DNA of 64,000 nucleotides, taken from Catalinimonas alkaloidigena (GTDB taxonomy: Bacteria; Bacteroidota; Bacteroidia; Cytophagales; Flexibacteraceae). The stretch covers positions 62,001-126,000 of the forward strand of contig NZ_FNFO01000006.1 of the NCBI RefSeq assembly GCF_900100765.1, written 5' to 3'. Made by a program: the position numbers and the translations under genes. Numbering within the stretch: the first letter of the stretch is position 1; each line of letters starts with the position of its first letter. A model generated the notes under the pieces. It did not search any database. It was not told where the DNA came from and saw nothing but the letters and a program-made list of their open reading frames with translations. This document shows, piece by piece, positions 2,483 through 45,034 of the stretch.

Positions 2483-2879
2483 GAAAAGTTGTTTTTCCTG
2501 ACAAGCCCTCTTCCATAGAAATTCATACCCTCAGGAACTAAAAGGCGATATTTCCTTTGTTTTTAGAGGAGAGAAGCAAATTCCGGCTTTTCAGCGGTTT
2601 ACCTCACAAAAGATCAGCCCTGTTGGTGTCTACGACGATCAAGAAATTGATTGTCAGGCTTTTGTGAAGACGAAAGGAGGGAAGAAGCGCTGTAGTTCGT
2701 CGACATGAAGATTGCTACGGAAACCTTTTTAACATCACATAATCGGAAAATACTCGACGTGATATAGTTCAATTTTTTATTTGAAAGGTTGGGTTTGCTT
2801 TTGGCAATAGTTTTGGAATCCAGCGTTTTAGCTTTAACTTACTTTACCCATTTGTTCTGTCGCTCATTACACCGATTAC
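2483..2879. other. AT-rich intergenic region between divergent genes
   Basis: These 397 bases separate the small minus-strand gene from prc and must contain the prc promoter. A frame on the plus strand is open from 2502 to 2708 but has no in-frame ATG and matches nothing I know, so I do not call it a gene; it may be a decayed coding remnant. I saw no convincing hairpin, repeat or RNA gene here. Confidence 0.5.
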
Positions 2880-4973: not shown

Positions 4974-5055
4974 ACCCTACGGCCGTGAGGCCGCAAACGA
5001 TACGACGACTCGAACGCGTCATCAGCTTAGGCCGGTGGCGCGTTCTTTTTGGCAG

Positions 5056-5094
5056 TAAAAAAGCCGCCCTTTCGAAAAAGAGCGGCTTTTTTTA
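5056..5094. terminator. bidirectional terminator between prc and pyc
   Basis: The stem AAAGCCGC / GCGGCTTT is flanked by A-runs on the left and T-runs on the right, so it can end transcription of prc (plus) and of pyc (minus). Confidence 0.88.
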
Positions 5095-5110
5095 TAGGAA
5101 CTCCGGTACC

Positions 5111-8100
5111 TTAATCGAGCGTCAGGACCAGGTCGTCGGTATCGACCAGCGTCCCTTCCGACAACTCGATGTGCCCCACCGTGCCTTCGCGCGGCGCCGT
5201 AATGGTCGTTTCCATCTTCATGGCTTCCACGATGAACAGCGGCGTATTTTTCTGCACTTCGGTGCCGGGTTTCACCAGAATCCGCGACAGCATGCCTTGC
5301 AGCGGCGTGCCGATTTCGTTTTCTTTCTTCACCTTGACGTGCTCTGCCTTATCGACTTTCACCGACCGGTCTTTGGTATCGATGGAGCGTGACTGTCCGT
5401 TCAGAATGAAGTTGACAGTGCGCATGCCCCGTTCGTCCGGCTCGCTGATGTACTGCAATTGCACGATGATGCTCTTGCCCGAATCGATTTCGATGATGGC
5501 TTCTTCGTTCAGGTTCATGCCGTAGAGGAAGAGGAGTGTCGGCACGTTGCTGATGTCCCCGAACTTCTTGTGGTGGGCGAAGTACTCTTCGAATACGGTC
5601 GGATACAACTTCCACGACAAGAAATCGAGAAGCGTGAGGGAGGAATCGAACTGCTTGCGGAACTCCTCGAATTCCTGTTCAAATTCGATGGGTTGCAGGT
5701 GCGCGTTCGGCCGGTCGGTAAAGGCCGGCTCACCCTTCAGCACAATTTGCTGGAGCTTTTCGGGGAAACCGCCGACGGGCTGCCCCAATTCGCCTCGGAA
5801 GAAACTCTGCACCGAATCGGGAAACGAAAGCTGTTCGCCTCGTTCGTAGACGTCTTCGGGCGTGAGGTTGTTCGACACCATGTACAGCGCCATATCGCCT
5901 ACCACTTTGGACGAAGGCGTTACCTTCACAATGTCGCCGAACATCTGGTTGACGGCCGCGTACATCCGCCGGATTTCCGGCATTTTGTTCGCCAGACCCA
6001 GCGCCGTTGCCTGCGAGCGGAGGTTGGAATACTGCCCGCCGGGAATCTCGTGCTGGTACACGTCGGCCGCGCCGGCCTTCAGGCCCGACTCAAACGGGTA
6101 GTAGTACTCACGGATCACCTCCCAATAGTCCGAAAAGTCGTTGAGTGAATCGATGTCGAACTGAGGGGCGCGGGGTGAGGTTTTGAGCGTCTCGACCAGC
6201 GTGTTGAAGTTGGGTTGCGACGTAAGCCCCGACATGCTGCCGATGGCTATGTCGACCACGTCGACCCCGGCTTCGATGGCTTTCATGTACGTAGCCAGTT
6301 GCGCCGACGACGAGTCGTGGGTGTGCAGATGAATCGGCACGTCGACCGCCTTTTTCAGTTCGGTGATCAGTTGCGTGGCGGCATAAGGCTTGAGGAGCCC
6401 CGCCATGTCTTTGATGGCGATCAGATGCGCGCCTTCGTCTTCCACCTGGCGGGCCAGGTCGAGGTAGTACTGCAACGTGTACTTGGTGCGCGAAGGATCA
6501 GAAATGTCGCCGGTGTAGCACAGGCACACTTCGGCCAGCGACTCGGTTCGCTCTCGCACGGTCCGGATGCTGACTTTCATGTTCTCCAGCCAGTTGAGCG
6601 AATCGAAAATCCGGAAAATGTCGATGCCCTGTTCCGCGCTTTTCTCGATAAACTTCTCCACGAGGTTGTCCGGATAGGCAGTATAGCCCACGGCATTGGA
6701 GCCCCGCAGGAGCATCTGCAACAAGAGGTTGGGCATGGCTTCGCGGAACAGTTGGAGGCGCTGCCACGGATCTTCGCGCAGAAAACGCATGGCTACGTCG
6801 AACGTAGCTCCGCCCCACACTTCGGCCGAAAACACCTGCGGATGATTTTTGGCGAAACTTTCGGCCACGGCCAGCAGATCGCGCGTCCGCATGCGGGTCG
6901 CCAACAGCGACTGGTGGGCATCGCGGAACGTAGTGTCCGTAAACTTGACTTCTTTTTCCTGGCGCAGCCACTGCGTAAAGCCTTCGCGTCCCAGTTCCTG
7001 GAGGCGTTGCTTGGTGCCGGCCGGGTACTCGGCGAAGCGGTCGAACGCCGGAATGCGCGGAGTACGGAACTTGCGGCTCGGGTCCACGTTCTTGACGATC
7101 GGGTTGCCGTTCACCGTGGTATCCGCCAGGAAGCGGAGGATGCGCGTGCCACGGTCCTGCTTGCGCGAAAAATCGAACAGTTCGGGGTGCGTGTCGATGA
7201 AGCTGACGCGCGCTTTGCCTTCCTGAAATTCCGGGTGCATGATCACATTCTCCAGGAACGGGATGTTGGTTTTTACCCCCCGGATGCGGAACTCGGTCAG
7301 CGTCCGGTGCAGGCGCTGGCAGGCGCCTTTCAGCGTCCGGCCCGAAGCCGTCACTTTCGCCAGCATCGAGTCGAAGAAGGGCGAAATGCGCACACCGGTG
7401 TACGAACTGCCCTCGTCGATCCGAATGCCGAACCCACCCGCGTTGCGGTAGAAGAGAATGGTGCCGTAGTCGGGCTTGAATTTGTTTTCGGGGTCTTCGG
7501 TCGTGATGCGGCACTGGATGGCGAAGCCGTCGCACGTGATGTCTTCCTGACTTTTGAAATACAGGCCCGACGAGCTCATGGGCCGCCCGGCGGCAATGAT
7601 GATCTGGCTGCGGACAATGTCGATGCCGGTGACTTCTTCGGTCACCGTATGTTCCACCTGCACCCGTGGGTTGACCTCAATGAAGTAGATGTCCTCGTTT
7701 TCGTCGACCAGAAATTCGACCGTACCGGCGTTGTTGTAGTTCACATGCCGGGCAATGGCCAGGGCGTAGTCGTAGAGCTTCTGCTTGGTTTCGGGTTGCA
7801 GGCCGGGAGCGGGGGCCACCTCGACCACCTTTTGGAAACGTCGTTGCACGGAACAGTCGCGTTCGTAGAGGTGATAGATATTGCCGTGGCGGTCGCCCAA
7901 AATCTGCACCTCGATGTGCTTCGGGTTGACGATGTATTTCTCCAGGAAGATGGTGTCATCACCGAACGCATTTTTGGCTTCGCGCCGCGCTTCCGTAAAG
8001 GCGCGTTCGAGCTGGTCTTCCGTATGGAGCACCCGCATGCCCCGGCCGCCGCCGCCCGCCGCCGCTTTCAGGATGACGGGATATCCAATGCGCCGGGCTT

Positions 8101-8545
8101 CGCTGTGGGCGGTGGGCACGTCCACCAGCGGCACCTGATTGCTTTCGATGATGGGCACCTGCACCGCTTGCGCCACGGCTTTGGCGCGGACCTTGTCGCC
8201 CAGCTGCTCCATCACTTCCGGGTCGGGCCCTACGAAGATGATGCCCTCTTCGCGGCAACGCCGGGCAAACGTGACGTTCTCGGACAGAAAGCCGTAGCCC
8301 GGGTGAATGGCGTCGACCTTGTGAATTTTCGCCTGTAAAATGATTTCTTCGATGTCCAGATAGGGCCGTAGGGGATCGTCGTCGGCGCCGATCTGGTACG
8401 CTTCGTCGGCTTTATAGCGGTGGAGGGAGTAACGGTCTTCGTACGTATAAAGTGCTACCGTGCGGATGCGCAATTCAGAGGCGGCGCGCAGGACACGGAT
8501 GGCGATTTCGCCCCGGTTGGCCACCAGGAGCTTACGAATCTTCAT
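5111..8545 (-). CDS. pyc: pyruvate carboxylase, single-chain form
   Basis: This 1144-residue biotin enzyme carboxylates pyruvate to oxaloacetate with ATP and bicarbonate, refilling the TCA cycle. All domains are on one chain. The biotin carboxylase occupies residues 1-450 (glycine-rich ATP loop AAAGGGGRGMRV; EVNPRVQVEHTVTEE). The carboxyltransferase runs from about 535 to 830 (FTDTTFRDAHQSLLATRMRT, and zinc-ligand-type HLHTHD). A C-terminal tetramerisation region follows, then the biotin carrier domain ending with EAMKMETT, where K1110 carries biotin. The length is normal for the family. No partner gene is adjacent, so it is probably transcribed alone. The SulP-carbonic anhydrase fusion at 30.8-33.1 kb could help supply its bicarbonate, but that link is inference. 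Confidence 0.97.
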   Translation of the reverse strand: MKIRKLLVANRGEIAIRVLRAASELRIRTVALYTYEDRYSLHRYKADEAYQIGADDDPLRPYLDIEEIILQAKIHKVDAIHPGYGFLSENVTFARRCREEGIIFVGPDPEVMEQLGDKVRAKAVAQAVQVPIIESNQVPLVDVPTAHSEARRIGYPVILKAAAGGGGRGMRVLHTEDQLERAFTEARREAKNAFGDDTIFLEKYIVNPKHIEVQILGDRHGNIYHLYERDCSVQRRFQKVVEVAPAPGLQPETKQKLYDYALAIARHVNYNNAGTVEFLVDENEDIYFIEVNPRVQVEHTVTEEVTGIDIVRSQIIIAAGRPMSSSGLYFKSQEDITCDGFAIQCRITTEDPENKFKPDYGTILFYRNAGGFGIRIDEGSSYTGVRISPFFDSMLAKVTASGRTLKGACQRLHRTLTEFRIRGVKTNIPFLENVIMHPEFQEGKARVSFIDTHPELFDFSRKQDRGTRILRFLADTTVNGNPIVKNVDPSRKFRTPRIPAFDRFAEYPAGTKQRLQELGREGFTQWLRQEKEVKFTDTTFRDAHQSLLATRMRTRDLLAVAESFAKNHPQVFSAEVWGGATFDVAMRFLREDPWQRLQLFREAMPNLLLQMLLRGSNAVGYTAYPDNLVEKFIEKSAEQGIDIFRIFDSLNWLENMKVSIRTVRERTESLAEVCLCYTGDISDPSRTKYTLQYYLDLARQVEDEGAHLIAIKDMAGLLKPYAATQLITELKKAVDVPIHLHTHDSSSAQLATYMKAIEAGVDVVDIAIGSMSGLTSQPNFNTLVETLKTSPRAPQFDIDSLNDFSDYWEVIREYYYPFESGLKAGAADVYQHEIPGGQYSNLRSQATALGLANKMPEIRRMYAAVNQMFGDIVKVTPSSKVVGDMALYMVSNNLTPEDVYERGEQLSFPDSVQSFFRGELGQPVGGFPEKLQQIVLKGEPAFTDRPNAHLQPIEFEQEFEEFRKQFDSSLTLLDFLSWKLYPTVFEEYFAHHKKFGDISNVPTLLFLYGMNLNEEAIIEIDSGKSIIVQLQYISEPDERGMRTVNFILNGQSRSIDTKDRSVKVDKAEHVKVKKENEIGTPLQGMLSRILVKPGTEVQKNTPLFIVEAMKMETTITAPREGTVGHIELSEGTLVDTDDLVLTLD

Positions 8546-8630
8546 AATAGAGGAATTATTTTATAAAAAAGAATGATACGTCATGTAAGAAATACTGCAC
8601 GAAGATATTGATAAATCAGGTTTCAGCCAT

Positions 8631-8656
8631 AAAAAAAGGCGCTGTACCAGCGCCTC
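8631..8656 (-). terminator. terminator of the 8681-9115 gene
   Basis: A perfect 8-bp stem, AGGCGCTG-TAC-CAGCGCCT, is followed on the minus strand by seven T residues, just after the stop of the small gene and upstream of pyc. Confidence 0.88.
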
Positions 8657-8680
8657 AGCCAAATAAAGTGTTCGACCCGA

Positions 8681-9115
8681 TCAGCGTTCCAACGCTTCCA
8701 GAAACGAGTCGCAGAAGTGCAGTTGCATTTCGTGAAACAGGTTGGGCGGGTATTCTTCCCGGATCTTCCGCAGAAACGCCCGGAATTCGGAACGGAACAA
8801 GGTGTCTTCGGGCAGAAGGTAACAGTATTGCACCAACGCATGGTGTTGCATGCGGGGTTGCCAGTGGCAAAACAGCCATTCGAACGAACGGGCGTGGAAA
8901 TGGCGCAGATGACGCTGGTCGAAAATCAGCTTGCGAACGGGCTGTTGCCGCAGGAACGTTTCCAGCTGGGCCAGCATTTCCCGGAACTCGTCTTCCGGGA
9001 TAAAAGGACGCGTGGCGGTCATGATGATGACATTCTCCGCTTCGCTGTATTCAATGATGACGTGTTGGCTACGGATAATCGTCCTGGCGGCGGTAGGTGA
9101 GGTGGTGGGTGCCAT
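8681..9115 (-). CDS. conserved-looking small soluble protein, possibly STAS/SpoIIAA-like
   Basis: The product has 144 residues and no signal peptide or membrane segment. It alternates hydrophobic strands and helices: HVIIEYSEAENVIIMTATRPF, then EFREMLAQLETFLRQQPVRKLIFDQRHL, then a C-terminal helical part. The pattern of an activity-measuring first half and a 'KLIFDQRHL' strand at mid-length resembles small STAS/SpoIIAA-like proteins common in Bacteroidetes, but I see no diagnostic motif. It is a monocistronic unit with its own terminator. The function is unknown; the STAS suggestion is only a fold-level guess. Confidence 0.65.
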   Translation of the reverse strand: MAPTTSPTAARTIIRSQHVIIEYSEAENVIIMTATRPFIPEDEFREMLAQLETFLRQQPVRKLIFDQRHLRHFHARSFEWLFCHWQPRMQHHALVQYCYLLPEDTLFRSEFRAFLRKIREEYPPNLFHEMQLHFCDSFLEALER

Positions 9116-9208
9116 GATAAACGTATAGGTTGTAGTGTAAAAAATGTAGTTAGTGTGTTGAGCACCAGCTATATACGTGTATACGGGACAGGAGGTTATA
9201 AGGATAGG

Positions 9209-9239
9209 AAAAAAAAGGCCTGTCGGAACGACAGGCCTT
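9209..9239 (-). terminator. terminator of the 9261-10526 gene
   Basis: An 11-bp perfect stem, AAGGCCTGTCG-GAA-CGACAGGCCTT, is followed on the minus strand by a run of eight T residues, 21 bases past the stop codon. Confidence 0.92.
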
Positions 9240-9260
9240 GAAATGAATGTAAGGAATCGA

Positions 9261-10526
9261 TCAGGTTTTCTGTTTTTTCTTCCGGGCTGCCGGAAACAGA
9301 ATGTTGTTGAGAATGAGGCGGTAGCCCGGCGAGTTGGGGTGCAGGTTCAGGTCGGTCGGCGGATCGCCCACGTGGTGCTGGTAATCTTCCGGATCGTGTC
9401 CGCCGTAAAACGTCCAGAATCCTTTGCCGATGGTGCCGTGGATGTAGCGCGCCTCGTGGGCGGCTTTGGTTTCGCCCATCACTAGCACATCCGATTTGAT
9501 CAGACGCTTTTTGAACGCCGTGGTCTGACCCATAAAGCCTTTGACGACCCGTTCGTGGTTCTGTGTCAGCATGGTGGGAATGGGGTCCCATTTGGCCGAA
9601 AACTGAAAGAGCGTGAAGAAGTCGTTGCGTTCGTTCATCGCTCCCCGGTCCATCATCTGATTGTCGATCGTGGAGTACTCATACTCGCGCCAGTCCATGC
9701 TGATCTGGAAGTTTTCAAAGGCAAACGTGTTGGTGAAGTCCAGCTTGCTTTGCGCGGCCGGATCGGCCGGATCGCCGTCGTACATCGATTCGCAGATGTC
9801 GACTCCGTCGGCCGCCAGGGCGATGTCGTACGTATCGGTCGCCGAACACATCGCGAACATAAACCCGCCGCCCATGCAGAACTCGCGGATCTTTTTTACC
9901 ACCGCCAGTTTCATTTGCGATACCTTATTATACCCGTGCTTGGCGGCCATGGCCTCGGCATCGCGCTGCTGCGCAATGTACCAGGGTTGGTTGTGGAACG
10001 ACTGGTAGAATTTACCGTACTGGCCCGTAAAGTCCTCGTGGTGGAGGTGCAGCCAGTCGTATTTGGGAAGCTCGCCGTACAACACTTCGTCGTCGTAAAC
10101 TACGTCGTACGGAATTTCGGCGTAGGTCAGCACCAGCGTCACGGCGTCGTCCCAGGGTTGGTTGCCTTTGGGAGAATAGACCGCTACTTTCGGCGCTTTG
10201 TCCAGTTTCATCAGGTCCATGTTGACGTCCGGGCTGCTGATTTCGTCCGCAATCTGCTGGTGCTGCGCGTCGGAAATCACCTGGTAACTTACTCCCCTGA
10301 CAATCAGCTCGTTTTCGATCGGCGTCATGTGCGGAAACATAAAGCTGCCGCCCCGGTAATTGAGCAGCCATTCGGCCGAGACATCCTGCGAAAGCACCCA
10401 GTAGGTAATGCCGTACGCCTTCAGGTGGTTGGTTTGCGACTCGTCCATCGGGACCAGCAGGTAATTGGCCTTCAGACCAGGGAGGCTACTGCCCATCAAC
10501 AGCAGCAAAAACAAAAATCTATGCAT
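9261..10526 (-). CDS. secreted protein with a class I glutamine amidotransferase-like (GATase1/DJ-1-type) domain
   Basis: The product has 421 residues. Residues 1-20 are a clear signal peptide (MHRFLFLLLLMGSSLPGLKA), so the protein is exported. From about residue 110 there is an alpha/beta unit (APKVAVYSPKGNQPWDD, then DWLHLHHEDF). A tight turn follows around GGGFMFAMCSATDTYD, which looks like the nucleophile elbow of the GATase1 fold with Cys as the candidate nucleophile. The C-terminal part is rich in His and aromatic residues (FYGGHDPEDYQHHVGD). As I recall, Bacteroidetes homologues carry the label 'asparagine synthetase B', but I see no ATP-pyrophosphatase domain, so that name is unlikely to describe the activity. 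It has its own terminator. The biochemical role is unknown. Confidence 0.75.
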   Translation of the reverse strand: MHRFLFLLLLMGSSLPGLKANYLLVPMDESQTNHLKAYGITYWVLSQDVSAEWLLNYRGGSFMFPHMTPIENELIVRGVSYQVISDAQHQQIADEISSPDVNMDLMKLDKAPKVAVYSPKGNQPWDDAVTLVLTYAEIPYDVVYDDEVLYGELPKYDWLHLHHEDFTGQYGKFYQSFHNQPWYIAQQRDAEAMAAKHGYNKVSQMKLAVVKKIREFCMGGGFMFAMCSATDTYDIALAADGVDICESMYDGDPADPAAQSKLDFTNTFAFENFQISMDWREYEYSTIDNQMMDRGAMNERNDFFTLFQFSAKWDPIPTMLTQNHERVVKGFMGQTTAFKKRLIKSDVLVMGETKAAHEARYIHGTIGKGFWTFYGGHDPEDYQHHVGDPPTDLNLHPNSPGYRLILNNILFPAARKKKQKT

Positions 10527-10745
10527 CGTGTCAGAGTGATTCAGGTAGCTTTAAGTTACACAAACTCAACCAATAATAAAGCCACCGCGTGGAGGTCTTC
10601 CTGTAAGTAAGCAACGCGGGCCGGAAAGGTTTCATTGTAGCGTGCGTACGCTGAACCTGAATATTGACCGGTGATGTAACTTTTGATCATCTTTCCGGCA
10701 TTTGGGGTACCTTTCTGCAAAAGAACCCGCTAGTTTTCGGCTCAG

Positions 10746-11984
10746 ATGAATATCAAAGAAAACATTCAGGAAGGTTTTCGTTCGGTGCGCTCCAACCTGT
10801 TGCGCAGCATCCTGACCGCCCTGATCATCGCCATCGGCATCACGGCACTGGTCGGCATTTTGACCTCGATCGACGGCATTCGCGATTCGGTCAATTCCAA
10901 CTTGTCGCAGTTAGGGGCCAACTCGTTCGAAATCGAAGAGAAAGACTCGCAGAACCGCCGGCAGGGGGGCGTGCAGGAGAAGGTGTACCCGCCGATCAAA
11001 TACGCGGAGGCCAAGCGTTTCCGCACGTTGTTCGCCGACGAGGGCACGGTCAACCTGGTGACGAACGTGACCTTTAACGCCGAACTGAAGCGGGGCTCGA
11101 AAAAAACCAACCCCAACAGTCGCATTACGGGCAGCGACGAAAATTACCTGGATGCCGCTGGTCTTACCCTGGCTTCCGGACGCAACTTCACGCCGCAGGA
11201 GCTGCGCTACGGGGCCAAAGTGGCCATTTTAGGGCAGGAATTGCTCAAGACTCTGTTCGACGAAAACGAAGAGCCGGTGGGAAAGGAACTGCTGATGCTC
11301 GGGACCAAATTCCGGATCATCGGTGTGTTGGAAGAAACCGGAGGCGTTTTTGGTGGCAGCAGTCGCGACCGCATGGCGTTGATTCCGATCGACAACGCTT
11401 CGCAGTTGGCCACCGACCGGGAACTGACCTACGAGCTTACGGTGATGGTGCCCGACCAGCAGCAGCTCGACTACGCACTGAGCGAAGCGACCGGCATGAT
11501 GCGGCAAATCCGCGGCGACCGTCCCGGCGAACCGGAATCGTTCAGCATCGAAAAACGCGAATCGCTTTCCCAATCGCTCGACTCCATTACCGGCATGCTG
11601 CGGCTGGCCGGGTTTGGCATCGGGTTCATTACGCTGCTGGGTGCTTCCATTGGCCTGATGAACATCATGCTGGTATCGGTCACCGAACGGACCCGCGAAA
11701 TTGGCGTGCGCAAAGCGCTGGGGGCTACGCCCCAACGCATCCGGCAACAGTTTCTGATCGAAGCCATTCTGATTTGTGTGCTGGGCGGAAGTCTCGGCAT
11801 TGTGCTGGGCATCGGCATCGGTAACCTGGTGGCGAGCCTGGTCGGAATGCAGTCGTTTCTGGTACCGTGGGGCTGGATTCTCCTGTCCTTCGTGATTTGC
11901 GTGGGCGTGGGCCTGTTGTCCGGGTATTACCCCGCCTGGAAAGCCTCGCGGTTAGATCCGATCGAATCGCTCCGCTACGAATAA
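10746..11984 (+). CDS. ABC transporter permease, MacB/FtsX type
   Basis: This 412-residue inner-membrane protein has the MacB architecture. One N-terminal membrane segment (residues 20-40, [19 protein letters not shown]) is followed by a periplasmic MacB-type domain to about residue 280. A C-terminal FtsX domain has three membrane segments and the family signature [20 protein letters not shown]. Such permeases work with an ATPase to export peptides or lipoproteins or to drive envelope machinery. No ATPase or membrane-fusion partner gene is next to it, so the partners must be encoded elsewhere. A weak TACCTTTC box lies about 28 bases ahead of the start. Confidence 0.9.
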
Positions 11985-24689: not shown

Positions 24690-25919
24690 TTAAGCTGACC
24701 TAACGACCACGAGAGTGATATCGTCTTCGTTCGGCAACCCTTGTGACCAACTACGCCCAAGGGCTACGATATGCTCAATAATCTGAGCAGCGGAGTGGTG
24801 AACCGATTGCTGAAAACGCTCAATGATCCGTTCAAGGCTGAGTTGTTCCCGATCGGCGTTGAACAGTTCGATCATGCCATCGGTCAAGGCCAGCAGAACG
24901 TCGCCTTTTTCCCAGGAAAAGCGCTGCGAAGGAATGTCGTGCGACAACCCTGAGCCCAAAAAAAGTCCGCGTTGCTCGATGATGTGGACCCGCTGCGCCG
25001 CGGCTTGATAGTAGAGGAGGGGGGGCATTCCGGAGGCGGTGCTGACAAAGCGTGTGGGACCGATCTGCACCAAACGAAGACCCATGTACATGCCGCGGGT
25101 TTGTAAGTTCTTGATCCCTTGCGAGATAGCCTTCATCAGCTCGACGGAAGGGATCCGCCCGGCCAGCGAATGGAAGTAGCTCTTCACGGTCGCTACGACC
25201 ACCCCGGCCCGAAAACCGTGGCCGGTAGCATCGCCCACCGCCAGGTACAGTTGCCCGTCAGCATCGATCTTGAAGTCGTAGTAATCGCCGCCCACTTCGT
25301 CGCAGGTGTTCATGTGCATGGCGATGTCCAGAAAATCGAGCCGGGGCGATTGCTGGGGCAACATCGAAAGTTGCAACTGGCGGGCCGCCTGCAATTCCTG
25401 TGTTTTGCGCAGGTTGTCCTGTTCCAGAAGCGTCAGGAGCCGTTCCATCTCTTTCTGCTGCTGACGAAGCTTTTTGTTGCTTTTCTGCAGGCGGTTGCGT
25501 TGCCGTTCAAGTTCCTGCTGGAGCTGATACCGCTGCAGGGCACTCTCCACCGTTTTGATAAGCTGCTCTTCCGAAATCCAGGCCTTGTTGAGGTAATCGA
25601 GCGCGCCGTGCTTCATCACCGAGGCGGCGACCGACTCGTTTCCCGAACTGGTCAGCATCACAAAGCACGCATTGTGTTTTTTACGCTGCATCAGGATCTT
25701 CAGCAGCTCTTCGCCCGTCATGTCGGGCAAACGGTAATCCAGAAAGGTACAATCCGGGTTGTGTTCGTCGTGGAGGTCCATGCCTTCGGCACCCGTAGCG
25801 GCACGCACCAAACGCACGGTACGTCCCAAAATGGTAGCATAGGTCAAATAACGACGAAAAATCAGAACGTCTTCTTCGTTGTCGTCGATGATAAGGATCG
25901 TGAGCGTCTCTTCTGTCAA
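24690..25919 (-). CDS. receiver-PP2C (RsbU/SpoIIE-type) serine phosphatase response regulator
   Basis: The product has 409 residues. A receiver domain covers 1-125 with acidic pocket IDDNEED and phospho-acceptor D61 in CTFLDYRLPD. A coiled coil of about 55 residues (QQELERQRNRLQKSNKKLRQ) follows, then a PP2C/SpoIIE phosphatase domain from about 185 with metal-binding aspartates in GGDYYDF (D212, D216), DATGHG (D230), LTDGMIEL and DDITLVV. Such proteins dephosphorylate anti-sigma antagonists in partner-switching cascades. It is third in an operon after the bacteriophytochrome and a single-domain receiver (gap 11 bases), so its phosphatase is probably controlled by light. The target anti-sigma antagonist is not in the window. 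Confidence 0.93.
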   Translation of the reverse strand: MTEETLTILIIDDNEEDVLIFRRYLTYATILGRTVRLVRAATGAEGMDLHDEHNPDCTFLDYRLPDMTGEELLKILMQRKKHNACFVMLTSSGNESVAASVMKHGALDYLNKAWISEEQLIKTVESALQRYQLQQELERQRNRLQKSNKKLRQQQKEMERLLTLLEQDNLRKTQELQAARQLQLSMLPQQSPRLDFLDIAMHMNTCDEVGGDYYDFKIDADGQLYLAVGDATGHGFRAGVVVATVKSYFHSLAGRIPSVELMKAISQGIKNLQTRGMYMGLRLVQIGPTRFVSTASGMPPLLYYQAAAQRVHIIEQRGLFLGSGLSHDIPSQRFSWEKGDVLLALTDGMIELFNADREQLSLERIIERFQQSVHHSAAQIIEHIVALGRSWSQGLPNEDDITLVVVRSA

Positions 25920-25930
25920 GGGATCGGTAG

Positions 25931-26362
25931 TTAATTTGCAAAGTACGGCTGAGGCAGCTTTGCAAAGTCAAGCCAGTAGCGTTTCAACGTTTGGATTTGT
26001 TCACGGAACGTAGCCAGATCGAGCGATTTGGCCATGTACACATTGGCACCGAGCTGGTAACAGTCCTGAATGTCTTTGGGGTTGATCGACGAACTGAGCA
26101 CGATCACCGGCGTAATTTTCCAGCGGGCGTTGGTTTTGAGTTCCTGAAGGAGCTGACGCCCGTCGGTGCCCGGCAGGTTCAGGTCCAGCAGAATAAGCGC
26201 GGGCGAATCGGTCGCCTGGGTGGTTTCCAGAAAATAGTGCAGGGCTTCGTCGCCGTTCGAGAAGCGCTGGATCGGGTGCGTGATCTCAGCCTTCTGAAAC
26301 GTACGCTGAAGCGTGTAGAAGTCCTCTTCGCTGTCTTCGATAACGATGATGGGGTGCTTCAT
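25931..26362 (-). CDS. single-domain response regulator, Rcp1-like
   Basis: The start at MKHPIIVIEDSEEDF (ATG at 26362) gives 143 residues. It is a stand-alone receiver with phospho-acceptor D60 (LILLDLNLPGTDG), the conserved Ser in VIVLSSS and Lys in YMAKSLD. The SEED pocket and the extended C-terminal helix (TLKRYWLDF) resemble Rcp1, the partner of cyanobacterial phytochrome Cph1. The gene begins 7 bases after the bacteriophytochrome stop, the standard arrangement for a cognate pair. It has no output domain, so it may pass phosphate on, compete with the downstream receiver, or act by dimerisation. Confidence 0.92.
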   Translation of the reverse strand: MKHPIIVIEDSEEDFYTLQRTFQKAEITHPIQRFSNGDEALHYFLETTQATDSPALILLDLNLPGTDGRQLLQELKTNARWKITPVIVLSSSINPKDIQDCYQLGANVYMAKSLDLATFREQIQTLKRYWLDFAKLPQPYFAN

Positions 26363-26369
26363 GGAGTGC

Positions 26370-28661
26370 TTACGCGGGTTGAAGTTGAAAGAAAAAAGTT
26401 GAGCCTTGGCCTGGCGACGAACGGAGCCAGATTTTGCCACCATGTCGGTCAATAATTTTTTTGACGATCGTCAGACCAGCGCCCGTACCCCCTCCGTATT
26501 GATCTCGGGCGTGTAGCCGCTTAAAAATACGAAAGATGCTTTCAAAGTGTCGTTCCGACACGCCAATTCCGTTGTCTTTTACGTAAAACGTCGGGATGCC
26601 CTCCGGCGATTCTGCCGCCAAATATCCGATTTCTACGGAAGGTTGATCGGTCTCGTTGTACTTGATGGCGTTGGTGATGAGGTTGGTAAAGACCTCACTG
26701 ACCCGGATCGGATCGCAGGTGACGGTAGGAAGTGGCTGGCTGACAGTGACTTGAGCGCCATGTTCTTTGATGAATACCTGAAGAAAATCGATGCTGTCGT
26801 GCACCAGTTGATTTAAGTCGATGCTGCGAATGGAAAGCTCCAGACGCCCCACCCGCGAGAATTCCAGCAGCGAATTGATGAGCTCCTCCATCCGTTGCGA
26901 CAACCGCACCAGGGTTTGTAGCTTCGAGTGGCCGTCTTCTTCGAAGCGGGTTCCGTAGTCTTCCAGTAGAAAGTTCGCGTAGTTGCGGATGCCCCGCAGC
27001 GGTTCCTTCAGGTCATGCGACGCGATGTACGCAAACGAATCGAGTTCGTCGTTGCTTTGGGCCAGCTCCCGGTTCAGACGGCTCAGGATGTCCGCTTTTA
27101 GCTTCAGTTCGCCGGAGGTCCGCAGGATGATGCCAATCACGATGTTGCGAAAGGCGGTCGCCGATTCGATTTCGTACGGCAGCCAGGGTTGGGCCTGGTG
27201 CTCGACCGATTGTTTCCAGGCCTGAAACGAGAGCCGGGGCGAGAGTCTGACCTCGCCGTTTTCCGCGACTTCGCCTTTGGTCGGTTGCCCTGCCCAGGTG
27301 ACGGTTTCGAGGACTTCCGGCCGGAACCACACCAGGTAATCGCCCTGGATTTTGGAAATGGAAATAGCAAGGATGCCGCTGGCCTTCTCTTTCATAGCCA
27401 GGCCCTCGGGCCAGTCGTGCGACAAGGCATGGGTGGCGTAGACATCGGGCAGGTTCCGCCGTTGCAACCACTCGACCAGGTGCCGGATGTGGTGCTCGGC
27501 AGGCGTTTGCCCCAACGAAATGATCTGGTCTTCGAAACAGATGGCTGCGCCTTCGGCCCGGACCAGGTCCAGCAAAGTGGTTTCATCGCGGTACAATCCG
27601 TCCGTAAACACCGGCGCCTGGGTCATTTGCTGGAGCAGCTGCTTTTGTACCATCCGCGCCTTTATATGGTAGCCTCGTTCTTCTTCGGTCTGCCGTTCGG
27701 CCAGCCGGGCGGCAAAGGTGTGGCTAAACAGCTCGCATGCCTGGCGTACGTGCTGCGGGACACGGTGTGGCTTGCTATGATGGCACGCAAAAAGCCCCCA
27801 CAACTTGCCGTCTTTGATGATTGACACCGACATGGAAGCCCCAACCCCCATGTTGCGCAGGTACTCGATGTGGATGGGCGACACACTGCGCAGTACCGAA
27901 AAGGTCAGGTTGAGCGGATGACCGGTCCGCGGATTTTCTGCAGGCAGAATCGCCTGAGGCGTGTAATGGATGTCGGGAATAAAACGCAGGCGGTTGCGGA
28001 GGTAAAGCGCACGGGCCTGCACCGGAATGTCGGACGCGGGGTAATGCAGGTCCAGAAAAGGCTCCAGCGCGTGGTCTTTCGCCTCGGCAATCACCCAGCC
28101 GTGGTCGTCTTCCAGAAATTTGTAGACCATTACTCGGTCGAATCCCGTCAAGTCCCGCAGGGTATCGGCCCCCCGCTGGCACAGCACCTCGACCGAAGAG
28201 GCTTCTTCCAGGTAGGTGAAAATGTTGTTGATGCGAGAAAATGGAAGCGGCTGATCCTGCGACGCTACTTCTTCCAACTCCACCACTACCAAACCTTCGC
28301 TCAGATGAACTACGGCTTCGTAAGGCGCCTCTTTGCCGATCAGGTGCAGGGTAACCAGCGTACTGCCCCGTGCTTCCTGATGTGCCTGTTCTACGAAGCG
28401 TTGCAGCGTCGCGCAGGCGCTGGATGTAAACACTTGGGCCATAGGGGCCTGTAACAGATTCTGGGCCATTCCAGGGCCATATGTATCCCAGTTCTGACTG
28501 ACTTGTTGGATGGTCTGAAGCGTTGGGTCGTAGGTCAGCAGCAACCCGTGAGGCTGAATTTGACCGGGAATGTGAATGGGTTCCCGGTCACAGTTGGTCA
28601 GGTCGACCGGTGCAGAAAGGTAGTCGCTTTCTTGTAACAGATTGCGAGGGGCAGCAGGCAT
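26370..28661 (-). CDS. bacteriophytochrome histidine kinase
   Basis: The start at MPAAPRNLLQ (ATG at 28661) gives 763 residues. The photosensory module is complete. There is a PAS domain with the biliverdin-attachment cysteine C24 in LTNCDREPIHIPGQIQPHG. The GAF domain has PASDIP and the pocket histidines in SPIHIEYLRN and LFACHHSKP, and the PHY domain has a tongue that keeps SPRLSF. The output is a histidine kinase with H549 in IASHDLKEPL and ATP-binding boxes NLITNAIKYN and VKDNGIGVS. The cofactor would be biliverdin IXalpha; no heme oxygenase gene is adjacent. It heads an operon with two response regulators. An in-frame ATG 45 bases upstream is possible but would move C24 from its usual position. 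Confidence 0.95.
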   Translation of the reverse strand: MPAAPRNLLQESDYLSAPVDLTNCDREPIHIPGQIQPHGLLLTYDPTLQTIQQVSQNWDTYGPGMAQNLLQAPMAQVFTSSACATLQRFVEQAHQEARGSTLVTLHLIGKEAPYEAVVHLSEGLVVVELEEVASQDQPLPFSRINNIFTYLEEASSVEVLCQRGADTLRDLTGFDRVMVYKFLEDDHGWVIAEAKDHALEPFLDLHYPASDIPVQARALYLRNRLRFIPDIHYTPQAILPAENPRTGHPLNLTFSVLRSVSPIHIEYLRNMGVGASMSVSIIKDGKLWGLFACHHSKPHRVPQHVRQACELFSHTFAARLAERQTEEERGYHIKARMVQKQLLQQMTQAPVFTDGLYRDETTLLDLVRAEGAAICFEDQIISLGQTPAEHHIRHLVEWLQRRNLPDVYATHALSHDWPEGLAMKEKASGILAISISKIQGDYLVWFRPEVLETVTWAGQPTKGEVAENGEVRLSPRLSFQAWKQSVEHQAQPWLPYEIESATAFRNIVIGIILRTSGELKLKADILSRLNRELAQSNDELDSFAYIASHDLKEPLRGIRNYANFLLEDYGTRFEEDGHSKLQTLVRLSQRMEELINSLLEFSRVGRLELSIRSIDLNQLVHDSIDFLQVFIKEHGAQVTVSQPLPTVTCDPIRVSEVFTNLITNAIKYNETDQPSVEIGYLAAESPEGIPTFYVKDNGIGVSERHFESIFRIFKRLHARDQYGGGTGAGLTIVKKIIDRHGGKIWLRSSPGQGSTFFFQLQPA

Positions 28662-28754: not shown

Positions 28755-29792
28755 TTATGCCGAAATCGGCAGGGCATTGAGGGCCGGCGGTTCGCCCTGC
28801 AACACCGGCGCTACCCACCGATCTAGCCGTTCCTGCACAAACCCGTTCCGCAGGTGCGGGGGCAGCGCGTCGACCCACGTCTGGTAAGTTTTCAGCCCGA
28901 CGGCCTTGGCCACGTAGGCTTCGTGCAGAAAGTTCAGGTAGCTGACGACACCGGCCAGCGACGTGTGGAACAACTTGAAGTCGATGTCGGCTTCCACAAA
29001 CCGCTTGATTTCCCGGTGGTTGGCCGAAATGCGCAGCCGTCCCATCAGGTCGAATACGGTCGTGTAGCCGATGCGCCACGTAAGCTGTTGCCAGTGCTGG
29101 TAGCTGAAGCGCTTCAACACGTCCCCTTGTTTGTTGCGCAACGCCAGCACCGGATCGCTCTGGATGCGCTGACGCACGCTCTGTGCCCGTAGTCGACGCG
29201 TGGTGCGGACAAACTGTCCAATCTGGGCCTGTGCTTCAACGGCTTTGCTGGCGAGTTGCAGCCCTGGCTTGTAGTGCGACAAAGGCAGGTTGAAAATCCG
29301 GCTGTCGCTGGCGTGGCCCGCCCCATAAAAAGAGATGGCTTCGGGATAAGCTCCCTTGACCAGCAACCGACTGCTTTCGCGACGGATGAGTTCGGGATGG
29401 GTACCACTGATGCCCTGCACGCGCAAAAACGCTTGCAAACCGGCCATCACGCTGTAGTAGGCCTGCGGGAAAGTCCAATGCAGGGCGTGTTTGAGGTACT
29501 GTTCGTCGCCGAGTTCACCGGTCGAGCGCAGAGCATACTCGGTGCTCCAGCAGTAAAGCAGGTGCTTGCGGATCGCGTCTTGGTCTTCCTCCGTCAACGT
29601 TGGGCGATGGTTCAGGAAATGAACCACGTTGTACAACGCCATGGCATCGGCAGAGGACTGAATATGGTAGTTCAGGCTGAAGAAATAATTCAGAAACACC
29701 TGAGCGGGAATCGATTCCGGGGTGATCTCCTCGCGCGTTTCTTCCGCGGAAGACACCGTCATGAGTTTTCTTTCGTTCGCTTGTGCAATCAT
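28755..29792 (-). CDS. protein of unknown function, mostly helical
   Basis: The frame is open from 29828; candidate starts are at 29828, 29792 and 29762 (MTVSSAEETREE), and I list the middle one. The C-terminal 330 residues look soluble and helical with several aromatic-rich stretches (VFLNYFFSLNYHIQSSADAM, HWTFPQAYYSVMAGLQAF, SYLNFLHEAYVAKAVG). There is no signal peptide, membrane segment or known catalytic motif. I do not recognise a family. It precedes the bacteriophytochrome by 93 bases on the same strand, so co-transcription is possible, but no other evidence links them. Confidence 0.7.
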   Translation of the reverse strand: MIAQANERKLMTVSSAEETREEITPESIPAQVFLNYFFSLNYHIQSSADAMALYNVVHFLNHRPTLTEEDQDAIRKHLLYCWSTEYALRSTGELGDEQYLKHALHWTFPQAYYSVMAGLQAFLRVQGISGTHPELIRRESSRLLVKGAYPEAISFYGAGHASDSRIFNLPLSHYKPGLQLASKAVEAQAQIGQFVRTTRRLRAQSVRQRIQSDPVLALRNKQGDVLKRFSYQHWQQLTWRIGYTTVFDLMGRLRISANHREIKRFVEADIDFKLFHTSLAGVVSYLNFLHEAYVAKAVGLKTYQTWVDALPPHLRNGFVQERLDRWVAPVLQGEPPALNALPISA

Positions 29793-30026
29793 ATAAAATA
29801 AACATTTCGTTGTGCGCATAAGTTTCATTTTTCCTATAAGTGCACTTGCCGTACAGGCACTTTTTAAATCCTGATTATTTGCTCTATTAGGATAATTAAT
29901 GAGGATTTTAGGTTTTAACGTTGCTGCCTTATATAATTGTACTTATCTAATTTATATGTCCTTCTGAGAGCTTTCAAGACAAGAGGAGTTTCACCCTTTG
30001 CAATGGCTTTCCGTATACCTGTCCGT

Positions 30027-30802: not shown

Positions 30803-33109
30803 TCAGGAGTTGCTGCCTTGCAACAGAGGATTAGGGGTGCTACTGAGGGTTCGGGGAGCCGTGGCACCATTGCCAAACCGGTAGACTTCGTCGTATTCTT
30901 CAAACAACTGGTGAATGTCTATTTCCAGGTCTTTGATGCGTCCGTCGCGCAAGTCGTACACCCAGCCGTGAATGTGCAGATCGGCGTTTTCGGCCCAGGC
31001 CCGTTGCACGAACGAGGTTTTGTGCAGATTATAGACCTGTTCGATCACGTTTAGTTCGACCAGGCGCTTGAACCGATCGTTCTGGTTGAGGTGCGTCAAT
31101 TCGGTGCGGTGCAGTCGGTGCACGTCCTTGATGTTCATCAGCCATTTGTTGATCATCCCGAGGTCTTTGTCTTCCATCGCGGCTTGCACGCCCCCGCAGC
31201 CGTAGTGGCCGCAGACGATGATGTGCTTGACCTTGAGTACTTCTACGGCATATTGCAAGACCGACATCAGGTTCAGATCGGTGTGTACCACCAGGTTGGC
31301 GACGTTCCGGTGCACGAACATATCGCCCGGCGAAGTCCCTGTGATTTCGGTAGCGGGCACCCGGCTGTCCGAACAGCCAATCCACAGGAACTTAGGCTGT
31401 TGTCCTAACGCCAGCTTTTCGAAATACTGCGGATCGAGGCTGAGCTTTTCGGTCACCCACTGGCGGTTGTTCTCGAACAACTTGCGGTACGCTTCAAAGT
31501 CGGCCCCTGAGGTAGGCGTCGGAAGCGGTAGGGGTTCGTCGAGTTCCTGACTGATCAGTTTTTCTTTGCCGACGAACTGGAGCTGAATGTTCTTGGAGCG
31601 TGCCGTTTCCTTAAAATCCTCGATCGTTTCCAGAATGTCGTGATCCATGTACATGGTATGGCTGGCGTCGATTTCCACGAAGCTGTTTTCGGGCAGATCG
31701 TCCAGAATGTGGACCAGACTGGCTTTGTTGAGGAACGAAACGTGTTCGCTCAGGTTGATTTTGATCTTTTCGCCGCTCGATTGTTTCTCTTTGTGGAAGA
31801 AGTACGTGGTGCGGTAGTTGGCCCGCAACACAAAGAACAAGCCGACCGCCAGGCCGATGCAGATGCCGATCAGCAGATCAGTAAACAGAATGGCCAGAAT
31901 CGTCACCACAAACGGAATGAACTGGCTAAGGCCGGTCTGATACATTTGCCGGAAGATGCTGATTTTGGCGAGTTTGTAGCCAATGAAGAGCAGGATAGCG
32001 GCCAGGGCTGCGAGCGGGATGCGGTTGAGCCAACCCGGAATGGTAATGACGCAGACCAACAGCAGAATGCCGTGGATCACGGCCGACATGCGGCTACGCG
32101 CGCCGGAGTTTACGTTGGCCGAACTGCGGACGATCACCGACGTAACGGGCAGCCCGCCAATGAGGCCGGACACAAAATTGCCGACCCCTTGGGCTTTTAG
32201 CTCGCGGTTGGGCGGCGAGTTGCGCTTGAGGGGATCGAGCCGGTCGGTGGCCTCCAGGTTCAGTAGCGTTTCCAGACTGGCGACGATGGCGATGGTGAGG
32301 GCCGAGATGTAGACTTGTACGTTGCCGATTTGCGAGAAATCAGGCATGGTAAAAAGACTCAATACTTCCTGTGCATTATTGGCCTTGGGCAGGCTCACCA
32401 GGTGGTTGCCCGACAAGACCCAACCCGGACTGACCATTTCGTACAGCAGGTTGATGAGTACGCCCGCAATAACGGCCACCAGCGAACCCGGCAACAGACT
32501 ACCCAGGGCGCTTTTTTTGATGAGCGGCCGTTCCCACAAAACCAGGATGGCCATGGCAAGGGCAGCGATGAGGAGCGCCCCCAGGCTGGGATTGAGAAAC
32601 GCGTTGATAATCTCTGTAAACGTATTTTCACCATCCATCTGACTGAACACAAAGTCGCCTTCGGCGTCGGCATCGTAGCCCAGGGCATGCGGAATTTGTT
32701 TCAAGATGAGCGTAATCCCGATGGCGGCCAACAGCCCTTTGATGACGGAATTCGGGAAGAAGTGGCCGATGACACCGGCTTTTAGGTAGCCCAAACCGAC
32801 CTGCATGAGGCCAGCCAGCATGGTGGCGAGCAGAAAGGATTCGAACGTGCCCAGTTTCTCGATGGCGCTGAACACAATGACGGTCAGGCCGGCTGCGGGG
32901 CCACTCACGCTGAGTTGCGAGCCGCTCAGAGAGCCAATGACGATACCACCGACGATGCCAGCGATAATGCCCGAAAAGAGCGGTGCGCCCGAAGCCAGCG
33001 CAATGCCCAGGCAGAGCGGAATGGCGACCAGAAAGACAACCAATCCCGATTTAAAATCATATTTAAGGTTCTCGCGCCACGACGAAGAACTGCGTGCGGT
33101 GGGTTTCAT
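30803..33109 (-). CDS. SulP-family anion transporter fused to beta-carbonic anhydrase
   Basis: The start at MKPTARSSSSWREN (ATG at 33109) gives 768 residues. Residues 15-430 are a SulP/SLC26 membrane domain of 10-14 segments, with the SulP core LSGSQLSVSGPAAGLTVIVF and ATDRLDPLKRNSPPNRELKA. Residues 448-525 form a STAS-like domain (VEIDASHTMYMDHDILETIED). Residues 535-745 are a beta-carbonic anhydrase with zinc ligands C579, H635 and C638 (GCSDSRVP, CGHYGCGG) and the D581-R583 dyad intact. SulP members of the BicA type import bicarbonate; the enzyme interconverts CO2 and bicarbonate, so one chain could couple transport and hydration. Sulfate is the alternative substrate. No downstream partner; a small membrane protein gene lies upstream. 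Confidence 0.95.
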   Translation of the reverse strand: MKPTARSSSSWRENLKYDFKSGLVVFLVAIPLCLGIALASGAPLFSGIIAGIVGGIVIGSLSGSQLSVSGPAAGLTVIVFSAIEKLGTFESFLLATMLAGLMQVGLGYLKAGVIGHFFPNSVIKGLLAAIGITLILKQIPHALGYDADAEGDFVFSQMDGENTFTEIINAFLNPSLGALLIAALAMAILVLWERPLIKKSALGSLLPGSLVAVIAGVLINLLYEMVSPGWVLSGNHLVSLPKANNAQEVLSLFTMPDFSQIGNVQVYISALTIAIVASLETLLNLEATDRLDPLKRNSPPNRELKAQGVGNFVSGLIGGLPVTSVIVRSSANVNSGARSRMSAVIHGILLLVCVITIPGWLNRIPLAALAAILLFIGYKLAKISIFRQMYQTGLSQFIPFVVTILAILFTDLLIGICIGLAVGLFFVLRANYRTTYFFHKEKQSSGEKIKINLSEHVSFLNKASLVHILDDLPENSFVEIDASHTMYMDHDILETIEDFKETARSKNIQLQFVGKEKLISQELDEPLPLPTPTSGADFEAYRKLFENNRQWVTEKLSLDPQYFEKLALGQQPKFLWIGCSDSRVPATEITGTSPGDMFVHRNVANLVVHTDLNLMSVLQYAVEVLKVKHIIVCGHYGCGGVQAAMEDKDLGMINKWLMNIKDVHRLHRTELTHLNQNDRFKRLVELNVIEQVYNLHKTSFVQRAWAENADLHIHGWVYDLRDGRIKDLEIDIHQLFEEYDEVYRFGNGATAPRTLSSTPNPLLQGSNS

Positions 33110-33218
33110 ATAGAGACAATGAGGTGAAGAAGAAAGTAGAAGATAGGTGCCGTTGTGACGCTGCCAGAGCGTACAATGCGCCACAATACCAGTAAACTAT
33201 GGGTAACTCGTGCTGAGA

Positions 33219-44170: not shown

Positions 44171-45034
44171 TTATCCCAGGTACGGCTTCAGGGCTTTGCT
44201 ACGCGACGTGTGCCGCAAGCGCCGGATGGCCTTTTCCTTAATTTGTCGAACCCGTTCGCGGGTTAGGTTGAATTTCTCCCCGATTTCCTCTAACGTCATG
44301 GCATGGCCGCCGTTAAGACCGAAATAGAGCGCAATCACGTCCGATTCGCGGGTGGTGAGGGTCGCCAGTGCGCGTTGCACTTCGCGACGCAGAGAATCGT
44401 TGATCAGCTCGTAGTCAGGTGTGGCTTCGCTGTCGTTTTCCAGAACATCAAGCAGGCTGTTTTCCTCCCCTTGTACAAAGGGGGCGTCCATCGAAACATG
44501 ACGGCCCGAGATCTTCAGCGTGTCGACAATTTCAGAAGTGGTGACTTCCAAAACTTCGGCCAGTTCTTCGGGTGAAGGTTCACGTTCGAATTTTTGTTCC
44601 AATTCCGAAAAGGTTTTGGAGATCTTGTTGAGCGAGCCAACGCGGTTAAGAGGGAGACGAACGATCCGTGATTGTTCGGCCAGAGCTTGCAGGATGGACT
44701 GCCGTATCCACCAGACGGCGTAGGAGATAAACTTGAAGCCTCGGGTTTCGTCAAAACGCTGTGCTGCTTTGATCAGCCCCAGGTTGCCTTCGTTAATCAA
44801 GTCTCCTAACGACAAACCTTGGTTTTGGTACTGTTTGGCCACGGAAACCACAAAGCGCAAGTTCGCTTTGGTTAGTTTTTCCAGGGCCCGCTGGTCACCT
44901 TCCCGAATACGTTTGGCTAGCTCCACTTCTTCATCAGGCGTAAGCAGGTCTACTTTTCCAATCTCCTGCAGATACTTGTCGAGCGATTGACTCTCTCGGT
45001 TAGTTATCTGCTTACTGATTTTGAGCTGTCTCAT
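44171..45034 (-). CDS. rpoD: primary sigma factor RpoD (sigma-70)
   Basis: The product has 287 residues, the short form normal in Bacteroidetes. It lacks region 1.1 and starts at region 1.2 ([32 protein letters not shown]). Region 2.3-2.4, for -10 recognition, is [34 protein letters not shown]. Region 3 follows, and region 4, for -33 recognition, is [25 protein letters not shown]. It should read the TTTG/TAnnTTTG promoters seen ahead of many genes in this window. It is monocistronic, flanked by its own terminator and that of pnp. Confidence 0.96.

Follow-up and report, generated by a model that had tools for sequence, protein, structure and literature searches.

A probable exchange of effector domains in a phytochrome operon of Catalinimonas alkaloidigena

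The operon and its products

The DNA analysed here, called the window, is a stretch of 64,000 nucleotides from Catalinimonas alkaloidigena (Bacteroidota, Cytophagales, Flexibacteraceae; RefSeq assembly GCF_900100765.1, contig NZ_FNFO01000006.1, positions 62,001 to 126,000 of the forward strand). Its minus strand carries three closely spaced genes for a bacteriophytochrome, a lone Rcp1-like receiver and a receiver joined to a PP2C-type Ser/Thr phosphatase. In related operons the third gene encodes a receiver joined to a histidine kinase. As judged by sequence kinship, the operon very probably represents a natural swap of the effector within a conserved gene order. The features, in window coordinates, are as follows.

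26370..28661, minus strand: bacteriophytochrome histidine kinase, PAS-GAF-PHY-HisKA-HATPase_c, 763 amino acids (aa) (Pfam, motifs, matches to solved structures)
25931..26362, minus strand: single-domain Rcp1-like receiver, 143 aa, Asp60 (Pfam, solved relatives, tree)
24690..25919, minus strand: receiver-coiled coil-PP2C phosphatase of the SpoIIE/RsbU type, 409 aa, TTG start (Pfam, AlphaFold, fold match)
25536..25910, minus strand: receiver of the third protein, residues 4-128, assigned to the family of phytochrome-operon third genes (bit scores, tree)
25425..25502, minus strand: putative junction zone, residues about 140-165, inside helix 117-186 (segment searches, AlphaFold helix)
24696..25334, minus strand: PP2C phosphatase domain, about residues 196-408, with Asp212, Asp230, Asp347 and Asp399/400 (Pfam, motifs, alignment, model)

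The phytochrome and receiver genes are 7 bases apart, and the receiver and receiver-PP2C genes 11 bases. An earlier reading of the letters alone, referred to below as the original prediction, had given the same coordinates, strand and spacing, and the residues and motifs that it named (Cys24, PASDIP at 208, CHH from 293, SPRLSF at 474, His549, Asp60 and Asp61) all lie where it placed them. The G+C content is even along the operon, which sits well inside its contig in a draft assembly of 38 contigs (genome 99.5% complete). A search with one promoter pattern, TTG-N17-22-TAnnTTTG, finds no match on the minus strand between 24401 and 29100, and promoter-like sites around the operon occur at chance level. 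Upstream on the same strand, 93 bases from the phytochrome gene, lies an open frame of 357 aa without any Pfam match at E 0.001 (28755-29828), and further on a SulP-type anion transporter with a fused carbonic anhydrase domain (30803-33184, minus strand; Pfam Sulfate_transp and Pro_CA).

All five phytochrome domains (PAS_2, GAF, PHY, HisKA, HATPase_c) exceed their curated Pfam cut-offs, and solved bacteriophytochromes match with E-values down to 7e-163, with 8uph aligned over residues 19-760; the score against the NCBIfam BphP equivalog model stays below the cut-off (356 of 1040 bits). The protein has the N-terminal Cys24 to which biliverdin is attached in the BphP type, and its GAF stretch SPIHIEYL carries Ile at what we take to be the position of the Cph1-type Cys. 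In the kinase, His549 is followed by Asp at H+1 and Glu at H+4. Kinase activity has been linked to the first of these positions and phosphatase activity to the second (PMC8292422), so that the phytochrome may be capable of both. A contig scan with the phytochrome gave 11 loci, in all of which the identity is at most 38%. The genome has a second phytochrome-like protein of 516 aa, PAS-GAF-PHY without a kinase domain, whose gene immediately precedes that of a CheB-CheR-PAS-HATPase protein of 1385 aa (locus L174, contig C13:57000-70000, within 5860-11577 of the locus, plus strand).

The lone receiver exceeds the curated cut-off of Response_reg, and among solved structures it is closest to the phytochrome regulators RcpB (1k66, E 6e-36), RcpA (1.8e-23) and Rcp1 (2.9e-21), in agreement with the Rcp1 class assigned to it beforehand; in a tree it groups with 6 Rcp genes of related operons (support 99/97). 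The third protein passes the curated cut-offs of both Response_reg and SpoIIE, the latter with 100.3 bits against 25. Its PP2C part contains GGDYYD (210-215), GDATGHG (229-235), TDG (346-348) and EDD (398-400), which we take to be the PP2C metal motifs. In the AlphaFold model (mean predicted local distance difference test score, pLDDT, 94.6) a single continuous helix, residues 117-186, connects the receiver to the PP2C domain. The best solved fold match is Pseudomonas aeruginosa RssB (3F7A, E 3e-24), and the PP2C domain also matches SiaA-PP2C, Rv1364c and SpoIIE. Pfam, motifs and fold thus agree on a receiver, a coiled coil and a complete SpoIIE/RsbU-type phosphatase, as originally described. 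The alignment used for structure comparison (A1) misplaces a gap near the receiver end in the rows of related third genes; another (A2), with misplaced receiver fragments, was left unused.

The third slot in related operons

Phytochromes were searched for across the order in 390 genomes, the best 2 candidates per genome being scored. At least 43 further places with at least 44% identity were found in 42 genomes of two other families. One of these 43 (G096:C426, locus L058) ends at the contig end and was dropped from the census; at all of the 42 readable places the gene after the phytochrome encodes an Rcp1-like receiver, and the next one a receiver with a histidine kinase. Many of these third genes are visible only for their first ~340 residues, where the locus ends. 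A search with simple patterns for kinase boxes in 19 third genes recovered the H box in all of them, the N box in 18 and a G box in 17, the boxes of one genome (G233) being taken from locus L277 as its first locus (L074) is incomplete. Pfam found a receiver and HATPase_c in four of four third genes scanned, one of them from Deinococcus grandis, with HisKA over the cut-off in two.

The same gene order, led by a heme oxygenase gene, occurs on named plasmids of Hymenobacter volaticus, H. tibetensis, D. grandis, D. actinosclerus and D. aquaticus. The third gene encodes a receiver and a kinase in the two Hymenobacter plasmids (Pfam scan of one); the third protein is longer in the three Deinococcus species, having the arrangement receiver-PAS-kinase in D. 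grandis and resembling that protein in the other two. The annotation of D. actinosclerus shows no separate receiver gene between those of the phytochrome and the third protein. The operon hmuO-RtBphP1-RtBRR-RtBHK of Ramlibacter tataouinensis likewise encodes a heme oxygenase, a phytochrome, a receiver and an atypical hybrid kinase, as reported in PMC6848086.

In one family the DNA upstream was examined at 28 places, and all 28 loci contain a heme oxygenase; in the family with the phytochromes nearest to that of the window none of three places does, so that the window operon shares this absence with them. The original prediction had noted this absence and expected biliverdin from elsewhere; the sole heme oxygenase match in the genome indeed lies on another contig (C10:15991-16527).

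The receiver-PP2C gene sits where its relatives have a receiver-kinase gene, and at a similar spacing, while its product lacks, in the Pfam scan, the HisKA and HATPase_c domains by which third genes of the RtBHK kind are recognised. In the output of its third gene the window operon differs from every related operon that could be read. Conservation of the three-gene order across Cytophagales, raised in the original prediction, holds for the order itself, although the third place belongs to a kinase and not to a phosphatase in the relatives. No PP2C match to the third protein at E <= 1e-4 was found in 52 more distant phytochrome loci (L107-L117 and L133-L173, mostly with about 5 kb downstream). 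Beyond Bacteroidota, the survey comprised the named plasmids, the 11 loci of the contig scan and published papers. Three of the 196 plasmid records matching the third protein cover at least 80% of it, and one of these, from Aureimonas, has no phytochrome among the annotated neighbours. Elsewhere in the C. alkaloidigena genome, a row of kinase, lone receiver and receiver-kinase genes resembles the downstream part of the usual operon without a phytochrome (L278, C9:69000-75500, about 2765-5202 of the locus, plus strand).

Origin of the two halves of the third protein

When the receiver of the third protein was compared with 169 other receivers, 42 third-gene receivers came first with 66-92 bits, and the best receiver of any other kind reached 43 bits; three Deinococcus third-gene receivers were in between with 56-59 bits. 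The group of third genes in this search has 43 rows, including one unrelated protein of 217 aa (L125), and the genome's own receivers are represented in it by 53 rows from its 111 receiver matches. In a tree of 65 rows, picked by fixed steps apart from three rows of the genome itself that were selected for their score or architecture, the window receiver clusters with 17 third-gene receivers (support 97/82). A receiver of the third-gene family thus stands in the slot after the Rcp1-like gene, RtBHK being likened to it by description and not by sequence. This kinship also backs the predicted link between the third gene and the rest of the operon; the reading of the three genes as one light-sensing unit is likewise supported.

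The PP2C half has another origin, as far as its matches indicate. It is most similar to large sensor phosphatases, with 45-53% identity, such as one with CHASE3 and PAS domains. In the PP2C tree it falls within a group of sensor PP2Cs from its own genome and order (support 0.963), where it pairs (0.785) with a PAS-PP2C paralogue from contig C11, even though it scores higher with three PP2Cs from other genomes. The six receiver-PP2C rows of the tree lie away from it. Its linker matches those of the sensor PP2Cs. In segment searches, residues 120-163 best match third-gene linkers, with weak scores of 7-14 bits, and residues 140-195 match the sensor PP2Cs. Kinship therefore seems to change at about residues 140-165, inside the continuous helix. 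A junction right after the receiver, at ~130, had been suggested by a query of residues 129-195, which hit the sensor PP2Cs, and was dropped when the shorter segments placed it at 140-165.

No match spanning both halves was found in all 8 genomes of the family with the nearest operons, every candidate being scored. A search of 194 genomes in the order turned up one other gene of the receiver-PP2C kind (G093, locus L105, 3979-5235, minus strand; confirmed by Pfam). No phytochrome lies at this locus, and its receiver may or may not be kin to that of the window. Three more matches in the order, in frames of ~700 aa, begin at residue 34-40 and end at 407; no receiver was detected in the two of them that were examined. 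An intact third gene relocated within the genome was also considered and set aside: besides the window gene, the matches at E <= 1e-20 among the 9 of 97 candidates scored are on the PP2C side only.

Receiver-PP2C genes occur elsewhere in the phylum, and the six loci examined there contain no phytochrome. Loci L271 and L272, from other Bacteroidota, carry in succession a lone receiver, a 1160 aa protein, a receiver-PP2C and a STAS-like protein (L271:1168-6576, plus strand), without a phytochrome; this row would be a separate receiver-PP2C module.

Candidate partners in the genome

The original prediction had proposed a search for an antagonist/anti-sigma pair, and an adjacent RsbV-RsbW-like pair is indeed present, on contig C8. 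Two further lone small STAS genes lie on C5 and C2; an RsbW-like gene on C11 adjoins the PP2C paralogue mentioned above, and another is on C3. STAS genes were also found in four of the six receiver-PP2C loci examined in Bacteroidota, adjacent in two, and none was found in the seventh, L105. A SiaABC-like module occurs on C1 (L096, C1:682000-693000, 4398-8912 of the locus, minus strand), with a Cache/GAF/PAS-PP2C of 1143 aa, a SiaB-family kinase and a SiaC-family phosphoprotein in a row.

The suggested end point, a general stress or sigma response, fared less well. Both region-3 sigma factors of the genome, of 287 and 288 aa (C6:106414-106632, minus strand, about 44414-44632 of the window; C11:225442-225663, plus strand), are RpoD-like, and their scores of 113.6 and 123.4 bits are far below the SigBFG cut-off of 234.35. 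Their best-scoring models are of the RpoD type, yet the RpoD cut-offs are not reached either, and the general sigma-70 model alone is passed. No SigB/F/G-family sigma factor was found among the region-3 sigma factors, extracytoplasmic function (ECF) sigma factors lying outside this survey, and no sigma gene was seen among the translations around the C8 pair. This end point was rejected on these grounds, and a SigB-type client is unlikely as judged from the sequence models.

Proposed pathway and its alternatives

The ancestral operon would have been bphP-rcp1-receiver/kinase, often with bphO in front, and the output of its last gene would have been exchanged in this lineage. The receiver and the first part of the linker would derive from the usual receiver-histidine kinase, and the part after about residue 165 from a sensor PP2C of the PAS/CHASE3 type. 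In the pathway that we infer from sequence and predicted structure, including phosphotransfer, light control, substrate and client, biliverdin would be bound at Cys24, and red and far-red light would toggle the phytochrome between kinase-favouring and phosphatase-favouring states. The third protein would receive phosphate on Asp61, either straight from the phytochrome or in a share with the lone receiver's Asp60, and the state of its receiver domain would alter the pairing of the long helices in a dimer and thereby set PP2C activity, as proposed for RsbU and RssB. The PP2C would then dephosphorylate a Ser/Thr-phosphorylated STAS antagonist (candidates on C8, C5 and C2), and the freed antagonist would bind an RsbW-like kinase (on C8 or C11) to release its client. 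Taken as a whole, a swap together with a light-controlled phosphatase pathway is the best explanation, with a probability of about two in three. Control of the PP2C by the phytochrome is likely in itself, and a STAS protein has about an even chance of being its substrate. The fullest version is tentative and falls somewhat short of an even chance: a phytochrome rewired from a His-Asp relay to a Ser/Thr phosphatase, giving light-gated partner switching with an end target other than a SigB-type sigma factor, and, in one conserved operon slot, an example of receivers being transferable at the signalling helix from one output type, kinase or phosphatase, to the other.

Several observations weigh against this reading. 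The swap was found in one genome only, and conservation therefore lends its function no backing; no phytochrome match at E <= 1e-40 was obtained in 10 other genomes of the host's family. Identity between the window receiver and third-gene receivers is 40-41%, as compared with 48% between the two other families, a shortfall that amounts to at most about 4 points for the other operon proteins. This extra divergence hints weakly at a changed constraint, and partner specificity may have changed with it. Neither the operon nor its immediate surroundings contain a STAS or RsbW gene, and no RsbW-, STAS- or Sia-like gene lies near the sensor-PP2C genes in the loci of six relatives. The genome has 8 SpoIIE-type matches, so that its STAS proteins may serve other phosphatases. 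Lastly, a clade of the window receiver with that of L105 alone, although 21.7 log units worse, stands in the approximately unbiased test (p-AU 0.149).

This last result bears on the possibility that an ordinary RsbY/RssB-like receiver-PP2C gene, with a receiver of its own history, moved beside a phytochrome-Rcp1 pair without any swap. Such proteins do occur independently, in the order (L105), the phylum and other bacteria. However, every receiver-PP2C receiver compared, L105 included, scores at most 37.5 bits with the window receiver, far from the range of the third-gene receivers with which it forms a supported clade, and a clade with the six receivers of the phylum's receiver-PP2C proteins is rejected (p-AU 0.038). 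A constraint on all seven (p-AU 0.0017) is too harsh, as these do not make up a single clade. In the PP2C tree the phosphatase half falls among sensor PP2Cs and not with the receiver-PP2C rows, and the gene has the slot and spacing of the receiver-kinase genes; relocation is very improbable. That the fusion is an artefact of assembly or sequencing is hardly credible: it was seen once, in a draft assembly, but its open frame runs through a continuous helix in a confident model, both halves have diverged from every relative found, and neither the base composition nor the position in the contig suggests a misjoin.

Two other explanations concern the action of the pathway. The phytochrome might work mainly via the lone receiver, with the receiver-PP2C serving as a phosphate sink or under another of the many kinases in a genome with so many receivers, and the greater drift of the third-gene receiver than of its neighbours would suit this. 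The operon position of this receiver class is conserved, however, and in R. tataouinensis inactivation of the third-gene kinase is reported to give a phenotype similar to that of phytochrome inactivation (PMC6848086). Because of this phenotype in one studied bacterium, the slot changed here appears to belong to the light pathway. This first explanation is improbable. The PP2C might instead have a target that is not a STAS antagonist, such as the SiaC-like protein encoded in the C1 module or an enzyme carrying phosphorylated Ser/Thr. Such a target would fit an operon without an adjoining STAS gene, a genome with a SiaB/SiaC pair next to another PP2C, and sensor PP2Cs of the donor kind that are not STAS-linked in the six relatives. 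That pair already has its own PP2C alongside, though, the C11 paralogue adjoins an RsbW-like gene, and STAS genes accompany most of the receiver-PP2C loci examined in the phylum, so that we regard a non-STAS target as rather unlikely. A swap followed by phytochrome control of the phosphatase is preferred on this balance. The response may have either sign, light on or light off, as RsfSR and RsbKY act with opposite signs.

Relation to known systems

The family of each part is already known, as are systems of a kinase with a receiver-PP2C and, in outline, the phytochrome operon with a receiver-kinase third gene. No phytochrome operon with a receiver-PP2C is described in the titles and abstract beginnings listed in searches of the open-licence literature in PubMed Central; as far as the open literature goes, the new point is a phosphatase where the third gene of relatives has a kinase, with both source families identifiable. 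The operon of R. tataouinensis shares the phytochrome, the lone receiver and a third gene, which is counted there as a cognate regulator and which the mutant phenotype places in the light pathway, and differs from that of the window in its atypical hybrid histidine kinase and in the heme oxygenase within the operon. The plasmids of H. volaticus and H. tibetensis have the same sequence of phytochrome, receiver and receiver-bearing third gene, and their third-gene receivers score 79-80 bits with that of the window. There, unlike in the window, the third gene encodes a receiver with a histidine kinase and heme oxygenase lies directly upstream; the phytochrome of H. volaticus is annotated as two genes.

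With RsfSR of Mycobacterium smegmatis and RsbKY of Bacillus cereus the window operon shares a histidine kinase encoded together with a receiver-PP2C phosphatase, a mark of this type of two-component partner switch. In these systems receiver-PP2C proteins are phosphorylated by kinases and act on STAS antagonists, and phosphorylation lowers the activity of RsfR and raises that of RsbY (PMC10950880). Their sensors are CHASE3/GAF kinases and their known end target is a sigma factor (SigF, SigB), which sets them apart from the window operon. P. aeruginosa RssB (PDB 3F7A/3EQ2), the best structural match, is likewise a receiver, a long helix and a PP2C, although the identity is about 21-23% and the NCBIfam model of Pseudomonas RssB gives 94.5 bits against a cut-off of 700.

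The crossing linker helices of RssB have been compared with those of RsbU, and the coiled coils of RsbU and RsbP have been proposed as an 'exchangeable toolkit', in which helical linkers would allow N-terminal sensors to be exchanged among PP2C, kinase and GGDEF outputs (PMC12143880). The window operon fits this proposal. If the pathway is as outlined, it would provide a light input to partner switching where RsbV/RsbW-like proteins have no evident SigB-type client, and a red-light-controlled Ser/Thr phosphatase useful as a tool. The toolkit is a general proposal made with other sensor domains, whereas here the exchange would have occurred within one conserved operon slot and between two identifiable donor families; with the state before it known from 42 operons, the donor family known and the junction confined to ~25 residues, the proposal becomes approachable with natural parts.

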